Below, piece by piece: positions 40,751 through 43,609 of a stretch of DNA of 64,000 nt. The position numbers and the translations under genes are program-made. Every line of letters begins with the position of its first letter. Within the stretch, counting starts at the first letter, position 1. This DNA comes from Flavobacterium sp. YJ01 (GTDB taxonomy: Bacteria; Bacteroidota; Bacteroidia; Flavobacteriales; Flavobacteriaceae): contig NZ_CP119757.1 in the NCBI RefSeq assembly GCF_029320955.1, positions 2,170,001 through 2,234,000 of the forward strand, read 5' to 3'. Below the pieces are notes generated by a model, which ran no database searches, was not told the DNA's origin, and was given only the letters and a program-made list of their open reading frames with translations.

Positions 40751-40782
40751 AAAAAGCTAAAAGAATACTCTTTTAGCTTTTT
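40751..40782 (-). terminator. Terminator of the small Lys/Ala-rich gene (copy A)
   Basis: A perfect 14-bp stem (40751-40764 with 40769-40782) around ATAC, flanked by A and T runs, about 50 bp after the stop of the small gene on minus. Confidence 0.88.
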
Positions 40783-40832: not shown

Positions 40833-41021
40833 TTATTTTGCTTTTGGAGCTTCTGCTTTTACAGCTTCTGCTTTTTTCTCTCCTTTAGCTTTTTTGTTTC
40901 CTTTTTTATCGTGTTTAGCGACTTTTACTTCTTTTGCTGGTGCTGCTGCTGGAGTTGTTTGAGCGTTTACCATTGAGAATGTTCCTAATACTGCTACTGT
41001 TAAAATTGCTAATTTTTTCAT
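40833..41021 (-). CDS. Small secreted Lys/Ala-rich protein (copy A)
   Basis: This is a 62-aa protein with a signal peptide (about 1-20, MKKLAILTVAVLGTFSMVNA) and a strongly basic low-complexity mature part rich in Lys, Ala and Glu (KKGNKKAKGEKKAEAVKAE). It is paralogous to the gene at 43321: both share VAVLGTxxMVxA in the signal and a KEVK start to the mature region. It resembles the E. coli acid-shock protein Asr in composition and design, but homology cannot be claimed. Its promoter carries a TCTTCAT direct repeat shared with copy B, suggesting control by the adjacent two-component system. Confidence 0.75.
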   Translation of the reverse strand: MKKLAILTVAVLGTFSMVNAQTTPAAAPAKEVKVAKHDKKGNKKAKGEKKAEAVKAEAPKAK

Positions 41022-41064
41022 GACTTTAAATTTTATGATGATTATTATTTCATTATTTATAAGT

Positions 41065-41100
41065 CAAAGATATAATCGTAAAATGAAGACAAAATGAAGA
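41065..41100 (-). promoter_or_regulatory. Promoter and direct-repeat operator of copy A
   Basis: Minus strand, in order: TCTTCAT (41094-41100), TTTG, TCTTCAT (41083-41089), 10 bp, TATCTTTG (41065-41072). The 11-bp repeat period and the 10-bp distance to the -7 box are identical to copy B. The repeat occupies the -33 position. Confidence 0.65.
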
Positions 41101-41119
41101 TAAAGTCTTACAGGAAATT

Positions 41120-42454
41120 TTAACTTTTAATTGGCTTTTGAAACCATAAAATAAAAGAAGTTCCTTTTCCCAGTTCAGATTCTACTTTAATTTCTATATG
41201 ATGAAAAGATGCAATACTTTGCGCAATTGCAAGCCCTAACCCCTGCCCTTCTTGATCTGAACTAATTCTGGCAAACCTGCTAAATATTTTTTCCAATTGC
41301 GATTCGTCCATTCCAATTCCAGAATCTTTTACTTTAATGAAATATTGTTCATCAACAAAACCATCTTCAACAAGAATATTCCCATTTGGTTTATTGTATT
41401 TTACGGCATTTGTAACCAAATTATAAATCAAAATATGAATTAAGGTTTTGTTTCCCAAAAAGATAAAACGGTTTTGCATTTTATTTACAAACTGAATTCC
41501 TCTATCATCAATACGATCTTGAAGATCTTCTTGTAAATCTGTAACTATTTCGCGAAGATTGATTTCTTCATTTGCCTCATATTGATTATTGTCTATTCTG
41601 GAAATCAGCAATAAATTATTAATGATTTTTTTCAGCATATCTAAAGTCTTCAACGAACCTGCGATTTTATCTACAGCGTTGTCATCTAAAGATTCGTTTT
41701 GCAATAAATTTTCGAGTTTATTTTTAAGAAGCGCAATTGGCGTTAGAAGTTCGTGCGAAACATTCGAAATAAATTGTTTTTCTTTTTTAAAAACTTCCGA
41801 AATACGATCCATCATTTGATTTAAAACAAAATCCAATTCTCTAAAATCTCGCGAAGCCGCTTTTATCGGAGTGTGATCGAATGTTTCAGGTTCGTTTACA
41901 CGCCTAATTTTTGTATCGATAATTTTATAAAATGGTTTGAGAAGATATTCTATATAAAAAGTATCAGCCAAAAAAGTAATAAATAAGATGACAACAAAAA
42001 CAATTAGTATAAAGAAACGAATCACAAAAGTCAAATCGTTAACTTCAGACAAACTGCTTCCAATTTCAAGTTGATAATCTTCGCCTTCGTAGGTAAAATG
42101 ATGCTGTAGAATTCGATATTCGCTTTCTTCATTTTCAATCTTACGATACTCATTTGTAAAAGTGGTTTTCTTTTGATGCGGTTTGATTGGAACACGAGAA
42201 AGAACTAAAAACTCGCTGTGGAGTGTTGAAAACTCTGAAAAAGTTTCGGTAGAATCATCAGGATTTTCTATAAAATCATTAATTTCTTCCTTATTTAAGT
42301 GTTCTATAAATTTTTTCTTTTTTTCGAGAAGACTATTATTTATATGATGATAAACCACATTTTGAACCAAAATGGGAAGCATTAGCCATAAAATCAAAAT
42401 TACCAACAATCTTGTCAGTGCATTAAAAATGGCTAATTGATGTTTTATTTTCAC
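41120..42454 (-). CDS. Sensor histidine kinase
   Basis: This 444-aa inner-membrane kinase starts at a GTG (no better ATG is available). TM1 is at about 12-34 and TM2 at about 140-162, enclosing a periplasmic sensor of roughly 105 aa with no recognised fold. The HisKA motif is SNVSHELLTPI (phospho-His about 233). The ATPase domain has NLVTNAVKYN (N box), DSGIGMDESQ (G1) and GQGLGLAIAQ (G2). It lies nine bases after the regulator gene. The pair is bracketed by two co-regulated small secreted proteins, which suggests an envelope stress signal. Confidence 0.93.
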   Translation of the reverse strand: MKIKHQLAIFNALTRLLVILILWLMLPILVQNVVYHHINNSLLEKKKKFIEHLNKEEINDFIENPDDSTETFSEFSTLHSEFLVLSRVPIKPHQKKTTFTNEYRKIENEESEYRILQHHFTYEGEDYQLEIGSSLSEVNDLTFVIRFFILIVFVVILFITFLADTFYIEYLLKPFYKIIDTKIRRVNEPETFDHTPIKAASRDFRELDFVLNQMMDRISEVFKKEKQFISNVSHELLTPIALLKNKLENLLQNESLDDNAVDKIAGSLKTLDMLKKIINNLLLISRIDNNQYEANEEINLREIVTDLQEDLQDRIDDRGIQFVNKMQNRFIFLGNKTLIHILIYNLVTNAVKYNKPNGNILVEDGFVDEQYFIKVKDSGIGMDESQLEKIFSRFARISSDQEGQGLGLAIAQSIASFHHIEIKVESELGKGTSFILWFQKPIKS

Positions 42455-42463
42455 AAGAATTAT

Positions 42464-43138
42464 TTATTCGTTTATACGATAACCGACATTTCGAACTGTT
42501 TCAAACCAATCTATTGGTGCGTGTTTGTCTAGTTTTTTTCTAAGATTTCGAACATGAACATCAATAAAATTAGAATCTGAATTGACTTCTAAAATATCTC
42601 CCCAAATATGTTCTGTAAGCTGAAGACGTGTGATTACTCGATTTTTATTCAAAACTAAATATTGAAAAATATCAAATTCCTTTTTGGTTAAATTAATTGG
42701 CTGTTCATTATAACTCACTTTATAATCTTGAAGTTGTAAGACAAAACCATTTATAGAAAGATTGTTTAAAGTAAAGCCATGAATTCTTCTGATAACAGCA
42801 AATAATCTGGCGCTAAGTTCAGTCAGCGCAAAAGGTTTTGTCAGATAATCATCGGCTCCAAGATGCAGGCCATTAATTCTGTCATCTAATTCTCCTCTTG
42901 CTGTTAAGACAATTACCGCCATTTTTGATTTTGTTTTTCTAACGGTTTGCAAAACCTCAAAACCATCGCCGTCTGGAAGTCCTAAATCTAGAAGCATGGC
43001 ATCATAATCGTTACTATTAAATTCTTCTAAAGCATCGGCACAAGTGTGAGCAATCTTGCAGATATATCCTGCATTACACAAAAAATCATAAACTTCTACC
43101 GCAAGTTCTCGATTATCTTCTACAATCAAAACATTCAT
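42464..43138 (-). CDS. OmpR-family response regulator
   Basis: This is a 224-aa regulator; the ATG at 43138 is preferred over a TTG at 43144. The receiver domain has the acidic pair ED (7-8), the phospho-acceptor Asp51 (MLLDLGLPDGDGF), the Thr in VIVLTARG and Lys about 101 in LTKPFA. The C-terminal winged helix (about 125-224) ends with RKKLDKHAPIDWFETVRNVGYRI. It is first in the regulator-kinase pair. OmpR/PhoB proteins bind 7-bp direct repeats with 4-bp spacers, exactly the arrangement in front of the two flanking small genes. Confidence 0.95.
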   Translation of the reverse strand: MNVLIVEDNRELAVEVYDFLCNAGYICKIAHTCADALEEFNSNDYDAMLLDLGLPDGDGFEVLQTVRKTKSKMAVIVLTARGELDDRINGLHLGADDYLTKPFALTELSARLFAVIRRIHGFTLNNLSINGFVLQLQDYKVSYNEQPINLTKKEFDIFQYLVLNKNRVITRLQLTEHIWGDILEVNSDSNFIDVHVRNLRKKLDKHAPIDWFETVRNVGYRINE

Positions 43139-43212
43139 AACCAAAAGTGTTTAGCACAATTAAAAGTAATCAATTCTAAAAAACCAAATTATGCGTTATT
43201 AAAATATTAACG

Positions 43213-43244
43213 AAAAAAGCTGACAAATTTCTTTATCAGCTTTT
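43213..43244 (-). terminator. Terminator of the small Lys/Ala-rich gene (copy B)
   Basis: AAAAGCTGA (43215-43223) pairs with TCAGCTTTT (43236-43244), about 75 bp past the stop on minus. It separates copy B from the regulator gene. Confidence 0.7.
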
Positions 43245-43320
43245 AACTCCTGCATTCTTCATAATTATCCTTCCTGTTTTGCTTTCGTAATACTCTTCTG
43301 AAAACAAAACAAAAAACATA

Positions 43321-43530
43321 CTATTTATTCATTTTTGCAGTTTCTGTTTTTGGGGCTTCTGTTTTAGCTTCTGTTTTTTCTGCTTTCGCTTTTTTAGAAG
43401 ATTTGTGTTTAGGATGTTTAGTTGCTTTTACTTCTTTTGTTGCAACTGCTTTTTCTGTTTTTGCTGGAAATGCTTGAACCATTGCACTTGTTCCTAAAAC
43501 TGCTACTAGTAACATTAATAAATTTCTCAT
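43321..43530 (-). CDS. Small secreted Lys/Ala-rich protein (copy B)
   Basis: This is a 69-aa paralogue of the protein at 40833. It has a signal peptide (about 1-20, MRNLLMLLVAVLGTSAMVQA), then a mature region of Lys, Ala, Thr and Glu with His in the HPKHKSSKKAK stretch. Both paralogues lie next to, and on the same strand as, the two-component system. Its promoter has the same TCTTCAT repeat and -7 spacing. An Asr-like role in buffering or protecting the periplasm is a speculation based on composition. Confidence 0.75.
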   Translation of the reverse strand: MRNLLMLLVAVLGTSAMVQAFPAKTEKAVATKEVKATKHPKHKSSKKAKAEKTEAKTEAPKTETAKMNK

Positions 43531-43573
43531 GATTTCTAAGATTTAAGAATTAATAACCTTTTAATTTATATGT

Positions 43574-43609
43574 CAAAATTACTTTCACAACATGAAGAAA
43601 AAATGAAGA
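43574..43609 (-). promoter_or_regulatory. Promoter and direct-repeat operator of copy B
   Basis: Minus strand, in order: TCTTCAT (43603-43609), TTTT, TCTTCAT (43592-43598), 10 bp, TAATTTTG (43574-43581). No TTTG -33 box is present; the repeat replaces it, consistent with activator dependence. Confidence 0.65.

Follow-up and report, generated by a model that had tools for sequence, protein, structure and literature searches.

A putative two-component signalling cassette with a shared tandem-repeat operator and small polycationic envelope proteins in Flavobacterium

The genome of Flavobacterium sp. YJ01 (G000; 5.48 Mb, one contig) carries, within the 64,000-nucleotide stretch of DNA referred to here as the window, four minus-strand genes that are arranged in the direction of transcription as small gene B, response regulator, histidine kinase and small gene A. 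This block appears to form one self-contained signalling cassette that would switch on polycationic envelope proteins, a reading to which we assign a probability of roughly 0.78. Comparison of related loci makes it very likely that the regulator-kinase pair controls the small genes through a repeat shared by their promoters. The features of the locus are summarized in Table 1.

Each small gene is preceded by the arrangement TCTTCAT-N4-TCTTCAT-N10-TAnnTTTG. The complete site A reads TCTTCATTTTGTCTTCAT-TTTACGATTA-TATCTTTG (41065-41100, minus strand) and the complete site B reads TCTTCATTTTTTCTTCAT-GTTGTGAAAG-TAATTTTG (43574-43609, minus strand). Two such repeats stand at 41083-41100 and 43592-43609, as the initial annotation had stated, and each ends 10 bp upstream of a TAnnTTTG box; both are on the minus strand. 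The exact 18-base repeat has two matches in the whole genome, and these are sites A and B. When two mismatches are allowed, the genome yields 131 matches vs 117 for the reversed pattern, and the window yields 3 where 1.56 are expected, a number reached by 20 of 100 shuffles; the relaxed motif is thus background and by itself unremarkable, whereas the exact motif is not. A separate count in the same genome at up to three mismatches gave 23 matches vs 19 for the reversed pattern, so that only strong matches are meaningful.

Conservation of the operator was followed through a genus sample of 199 genomes, of which 52, including that of the window, have a regulator orthologue at the limit of E 1e-70 and 147 do not. 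The weakest orthologue in the sample (E 9.7e-106) lies far past this limit, and the regulator-bearing class is therefore clean. The 53 loci compared are the window, 51 further regulator loci of the genus sample and one locus of Flavobacterium tagetis (L031). A site was accepted when at least 12 of the 14 half-site bases matched. Site A, with 13-14 of these bases, the N10 spacing and an exact TAnnTTTG, is found in 53/53 loci. The repeat at the B position (12-14 bases) is found in 49/53, and in 45 of these it is followed by N10 and an exact box; the B-side box is displaced one base further on in L188 and has one changed base in L142, L189 and L190. Both L189 and L190 have an extra site 150 bp upstream of the regulator gene itself, which adds to the case for control by this regulator. 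The initial annotation had staked its proposal on the conservation of the repeat in orthologous promoters, and conservation is what the comparison found.

The individual columns of 104 sites give a similar picture. CTTCAT is conserved at 0.98-1.00 in both half-sites and the first T at 0.88 and 0.91, so that 12 of the 14 half-site columns reach at least 0.98. The four N4 bases are conserved at 0.94, 0.99, 0.75 and 0.51, and the N10 bases at 0.40-0.76 (six of them at 0.40-0.60) except for a fixed T at the second base (1.00). Conservation extends to an A/T-rich block that lies 13-25 bp upstream of both operators. The block of A overlaps the stop codon of the kinase gene and that of B overlaps none; since the B-side block is clear of the stop codon, this element may act as a contact site further upstream.

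The operator also follows the regulator from genome to genome. With at most one mismatch, the 36-base pattern occurs in 52/52 regulator-bearing genomes and in 1/147 regulator-less genomes, and the reversed pattern occurs in 0/199. The single regulator-less match (L227 in G017) has no gene directly behind it and looks like chance. Thus a search of related genomes, which the initial annotation had proposed as a check, found the full pattern to accompany the regulator, and taken together with the conservation of sites A and B it supports the proposed control of both genes by the OmpR-type regulator. In a family sample of 299 genomes from 236 genera, E 1e-60 was reached by the window's own regulator only. 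The cassette occurs in a subset of Flavobacterium-type bacteria.

Gene neighbourhoods indicate that the four genes form one block, which genomes either have or lack at a single chromosomal position. The block is flanked by polA and a metallophosphatase gene in 50/53 loci, and L185, L187 (located at a contig end) and L188 lack one or both neighbours. The metallophosphatase gene was searched in 12 regulator-less genomes, and 0/12 had a regulator or kinase match within its 1.5 kb flanks. In 8/12 the site is empty, with polA adjoining the metallophosphatase gene at about 90-200 bp; the other 4/12 showed no polA in the flank. Four of the eight empty-site genomes (G060, G066, G099 and G179) look like close relatives, with metallophosphatases 86-89% identical.

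Both signalling proteins have the domains and conserved phospho-acceptors of an OmpR/PhoB-family two-component system. The regulator scores above the Pfam cut-off for Response_reg and Trans_reg_C. Its receiver residue D53 is identical in 53/53 loci, as is the segment S189-R202, which we take to hold the recognition helix; 110 positions are invariant in the whole protein. An alignment of 34 of the 52 kinases, those at hand, shows H234 to be invariant in 34/34. For the periplasmic domain of the kinase (approximately residues 30-135), modelling gave a Cache/PDC-like fold with moderate confidence, and the periplasmic residues invariant in this alignment include H79, E57, E81, E130 and E137. The histidine and the acidic residues would suit the sensing of pH or of cations and prove neither. 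The kinase frame of L182 is 348 amino acids long, compared with about 444 elsewhere. The regulator stays below the cut-offs of the NCBIfam models PmrA (the best, 185.8 bits vs 330), PhoB (167.8 vs 296.2) and Bacteroidota PhoB (144.6 vs 270). Among PDB sequences ranked for the regulator, BasR chains are second and third. For the kinase, none of the 25 NCBIfam models listed out of 80 reaches its cut-off. Since its best score, for PorY, is 264.8 bits against a cut-off of 350, membership in PorXY, which acts in the regulation of the type IX secretion system, was rejected.

The products of the small genes look exported, lysine/alanine-rich and polycationic, and they are probably disordered. If cut after residue 20, proteins A and B both have a pI of 10.1, with charges of about +7.8 and +8.9, and their mature parts consist to 83-86% of A/K/P/T/E/H/Q. 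No Pfam family is above cut-off for either. With length and a signal-peptide-like start as the criteria for choosing open reading frames behind the sites, a basic frame of 59-83 amino acids with a mature pI of at least 9.8 was found behind 52/53 A sites and 46/50 B-side sites. The A exception (L188) failed the signal test. Of the four B-side exceptions, two are sites before the regulator gene and two are PepSY-like genes in L185 and L187, labelled by their similarity to a further PepSY-like protein (E 9.9e-28 and 8.0e-25); against Pfam PepSY_like, L185 is just under the cut-off (E 6.8e-06). A profile of the small proteins, to which those of the window contributed, detected 3/3 regulator genomes (including that of the window) and 0/48 regulator-less genomes. 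An automatic count gave 17 loci with a third small gene between B and the regulator gene, to which L166 and L178 were added by eye; this gene has no operator of its own and is therefore probably co-transcribed with B. As can be seen in Table 1, inverted repeats followed by a T run stand after genes B and A, so that transcription of each small gene may end at a separate terminator; neither repeat is among the entries of a G+C-based terminator scan. It can be suggested only tentatively, by analogy, that A and B protect the envelope, e.g. as Asr-like chaperones or charge shields.

Alternatively, A and B could be periplasmic partners of the kinase that report or damp its signal and not stress effectors, just as CpxP is the periplasmic partner of CpxA. 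Both proteins go with this system and were not found without it in the regulator-less genomes searched. The mature proteins are basic and E57, E81, E130 and E137 of the kinase are invariant, so that a charge contact is possible. However, two or three similar low-complexity proteins exceed what a feedback ligand needs, and beyond the signal peptide they have few conserved positions. The PepSY-like proteins that hold the place of B in L185 and L187 are compatible with effectors and kinase partners alike. On this evidence a partner role is unlikely, and an effector role under control of the neighbouring pair is preferred.

The two remaining alternatives concern the protein bound to the repeat and the direction of its effect. 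A different regulator, such as a general PhoB or a second OmpR-type protein, could bind the repeat while the neighbouring pair is merely linked to it: tandem half-sites are commonly used by OmpR/PhoB regulators, as in the case of PhoB, and these genomes have further such regulators, one of them beside a weak match in L225. This is highly improbable, as the architecture was not found in 146/147 regulator-less genomes, including the four apparent close relatives named above, and the presumed recognition helix and the half-sites are both near-invariant. It is equally improbable that the repeat is a repressor site from which the regulator is released for expression of A and B; a protein covering the -33 region could exclude polymerase, but the repeat and the core element are 10 bp apart in 53/53 A sites, while simple repression would need no fixed distance, and the lack of TTG at -33 in 31/53 A sites fits activation.

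The proposed activation by the neighbouring regulator is best described from the position of the repeat. PhoB stands in for the -35 element at its promoters. At the -33 position, a TTG whose last base closes N4 occurs in 22/53 A sites and 29/51 B-side sites; the repeat thus sits at this position, the TTG is dispensable, and the regulator most likely substitutes for the -33 element. The initial annotation had the repeat replacing the -33 element in copy B and overlapping it in copy A, and of this claim the position stands while the TTG is not required. According to work on Flavobacterium johnsoniae (PMC6847099), TAnnTTTG occupies -12 to -5, transcription starts 4-5 nt beyond it, and the -33 element is weak. 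The operator would accordingly cover about -40 to -23. A tandem site, a fixed distance to the core box and a replaced upstream element are the features of a class II-type activator site, and the best reading of the sequence is that a PmrA/PhoB-like regulator would sit over the -33 position.

Several observations weigh against the proposed cassette or limit its support. The B site is missing in 4/53 loci (L177, L184, L186 and L191). The conserved first two bases of N4 and second base of N10 leave the boundary of the motif without a sharp edge. Selection at 12 or more of 14 bases may flatter the column counts of the B side, though not those of A, which is found in every locus. The genomes are related, and the 53 loci are not 53 independent observations. 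The sites also lie inside the cassette, and linkage accounts for part of their co-occurrence with the regulator; it explains neither why the pattern is rare elsewhere in these genomes nor why the half-sites stay invariant while the bases around them drift. Outside the cassette, the pattern at up to one mismatch has no match in 34/52 regulator genomes and one match in 18/52, and 14 of these 18 are, by their letters, the same KdsA-like promoter. A weak repeat is still found before a PepSY-like gene in regulator-less G060. Proteins A and B have, in Pfam and NCBIfam, no homology to any protein of known function. Finally, a -33 box is reported as confirmed in Bacteroides thetaiotaomicron (PMC7366714), so that the dispensability of the element is not general in the phylum.

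Matches outside the cassette provide a few candidates for further targets. The near-match at the KdsA-like gene (labelled by eye) ends approximately 20 nt before it in the 3 of 14 cases examined (L226, L228 and L229). Among the matches listed, the first half-site varies between genomes and the flank AAATCATAACTACCTTTG is largely kept; as the flank is more conserved than the half-site, this promoter was not counted as a target. The extra match of L224 is antisense inside a gene and was set aside as chance. Those of L223 and L225 precede a PepSY-like gene and a membrane protein gene, respectively. In one genome, L222 (G094:C57:8489-8524), with ACTTCAT as the first half-site, lies shortly before the gene of a weakly MprF-like membrane protein, whose first 165 amino acids match Pfam LPG_synthase_TM at E 0.024 and offer a lead only. 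In the genome of the window, L235 (G000:C1:4380885-4380920) reads ACTTCAT-N4-TCTTAAT-N10-TAAATTTA, with 72 nt from the start of the repeat to the gene of a PepSY-like secreted protein.

This PepSY-like gene was searched in 46/52 regulator genomes and 48/147 others and was present in 31/46 and 9/48; 30 of the 31 loci were fetched. A degraded repeat (at least 11/14) precedes it in 15/30 loci with the regulator and in 1/9 without; in L298 the 130-nt stretch examined ends short of the operator. As the repeat is present in only half of the former, the gene is a possible target and not a conserved one. L299 (G060) and L300 (G066) lack the cassette and keep a strong PepSY-like orthologue. The initial annotation had called the module self-contained and named two target genes. 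The empty sites in 8/12 genomes bear out the first point, while the list of two genes is too short for some genomes, given the third small gene and the degraded repeat before the PepSY-like gene.

The closest known counterpart of A and B is E. coli Asr, which is likewise a small, basic, A/K-rich exported protein (pI 10.5, 98% A/K/P/T/E/H/Q) under an OmpR/PhoB-family regulator on tandem repeats. Published work characterizes this protein as an intrinsically disordered periplasmic chaperone that is induced about 1000-fold at pH 4.4 (PMC10746267). Its promoter is reported to carry RstA and PhoB sites (PMC4117788), and RstA to activate asr in response to acid (PMC11135836). The Asr family was not among the matches of A and B at E up to 10 in Pfam and up to 1 in NCBIfam, searches in which HMMER filters drop most weak matches, and the likeness is one of composition and control, by analogy, and not of homology. 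Unlike the cassette, the E. coli K-12 stretch has asr between ynfM, ydgU and ydgD with no adjoining regulator gene, and the asr half-sites, reported as TACA repeats at a promoter of another polymerase, differ from TCTTCAT.

The geometry of the operator is that of the Pho box, in which two 7-bp direct half-sites separated by 4 bp cover the upstream promoter element and end about 10 bp ahead of the core element. The cassette differs from PhoB and its box in the half-site and in the low PhoB score of its regulator, and from PmrA/BasR-PmrB in a score far below the cut-off even though PmrA is the best model. Other Bacteroidota loci (L037, L039, L041 and L043) also have regulator-kinase pairs, whose regulators are only 35-38% identical to the present one. 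By-eye labels place a PepSY-like gene near the pairs of L037 and L039 and an OB-fold-like gene near that of L041. A TTCCC-N6-TTCCC repeat, with the same 11-bp period and another half-site, occurs in L037, L039 and L043; it stands before the PepSY-like gene in L037, before the regulator and the gene behind the kinase in L039, and before the regulator in L043. Some copies lack an exact TAnnTTTG behind them, and the distance from the TTCCC edge is 11-12. This pattern was found after looking; 80 loci contain 6 matches, and three Bacteroidota loci account for 4 of these. The strict form with N12 occurs in 0/199 genus genomes, and no general rule is claimed.

Literature searches found no paper describing this two-component cassette, which does not establish its absence from print. 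An altered OmpR-type regulator is reported in F. johnsoniae (PMC10197871), and a link to the present regulator could not be made. OmpR/PhoB-family systems with tandem operators are already known; the form of the cassette, its operator and its outputs are new.

Table 1. Features of the cassette in the window.
Feature	Position	Strand	Description
Possible terminator	40751..40782	-	Inverted repeat AAAAAGCTAAAAG...CTTTTAGCTTTTT then T run; downstream of small gene A; by eye
Small gene A	40833..41021	-	62 aa; signal-peptide-like start then K/A-rich part
-7 promoter box, small gene A	41065..41072	-	TATCTTTG; 10 bp past operator A; read in sequence
Operator A	41083..41100	-	TCTTCAT-TTTG-TCTTCAT direct repeat, 11-bp period; read in sequence
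Histidine kinase	41120..42454	-	444 aa; GTG start; HisKA and HATPase_c above Pfam cut-off
Response regulator	42464..43144	-	OmpR/PhoB family; listed 226 aa from TTG, ATG at 43138 likely start; 9-bp gap to kinase gene
Possible terminator	43216..43244	-	Inverted repeat AAAAGCTGA...TCAGCTTTT then T run; between small gene B and regulator gene; by eye
Small gene B	43321..43530	-	69 aa; signal-peptide-like start then K/A/T/E-rich part
-7 promoter box, small gene B	43574..43581	-	TAATTTTG; read in sequence
Operator B	43592..43609	-	TCTTCAT-TTTT-TCTTCAT direct repeat; read in sequence

The mechanism suggested by these features would begin with a periplasmic signal, upon which the kinase would phosphorylate the regulator at D53. 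The regulator would then bind the two TCTTCAT half-sites as a head-to-tail dimer, at about -40 to -23 and in the place of the -33 element, and recruit or activate sigma-ABfr RNA polymerase at TAnnTTTG. The predicted output is a set of small polycationic proteins exported into the envelope, namely A and B and, in some species, a third copy. In a broader and rather doubtful scenario, Bacteroidota would have evolved, independently of enterobacteria, a portable sensor-regulator-chaperone cassette with two or three disordered polycationic envelope chaperones, in which the activator fully replaces the -33 element of the unusual sigma-ABfr promoter.

The cassette provides a rare operator with fixed spacing for an OmpR-type regulator in Flavobacterium-type bacteria, where the -33 element is described as poorly defined (PMC6847099). 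Its two short native promoters make the activation of sigma-ABfr promoters directly testable, and genomes that naturally lack the cassette can serve as controls. The cassette further draws attention to a set of small, exported, polycationic proteins described by neither Pfam nor NCBIfam.

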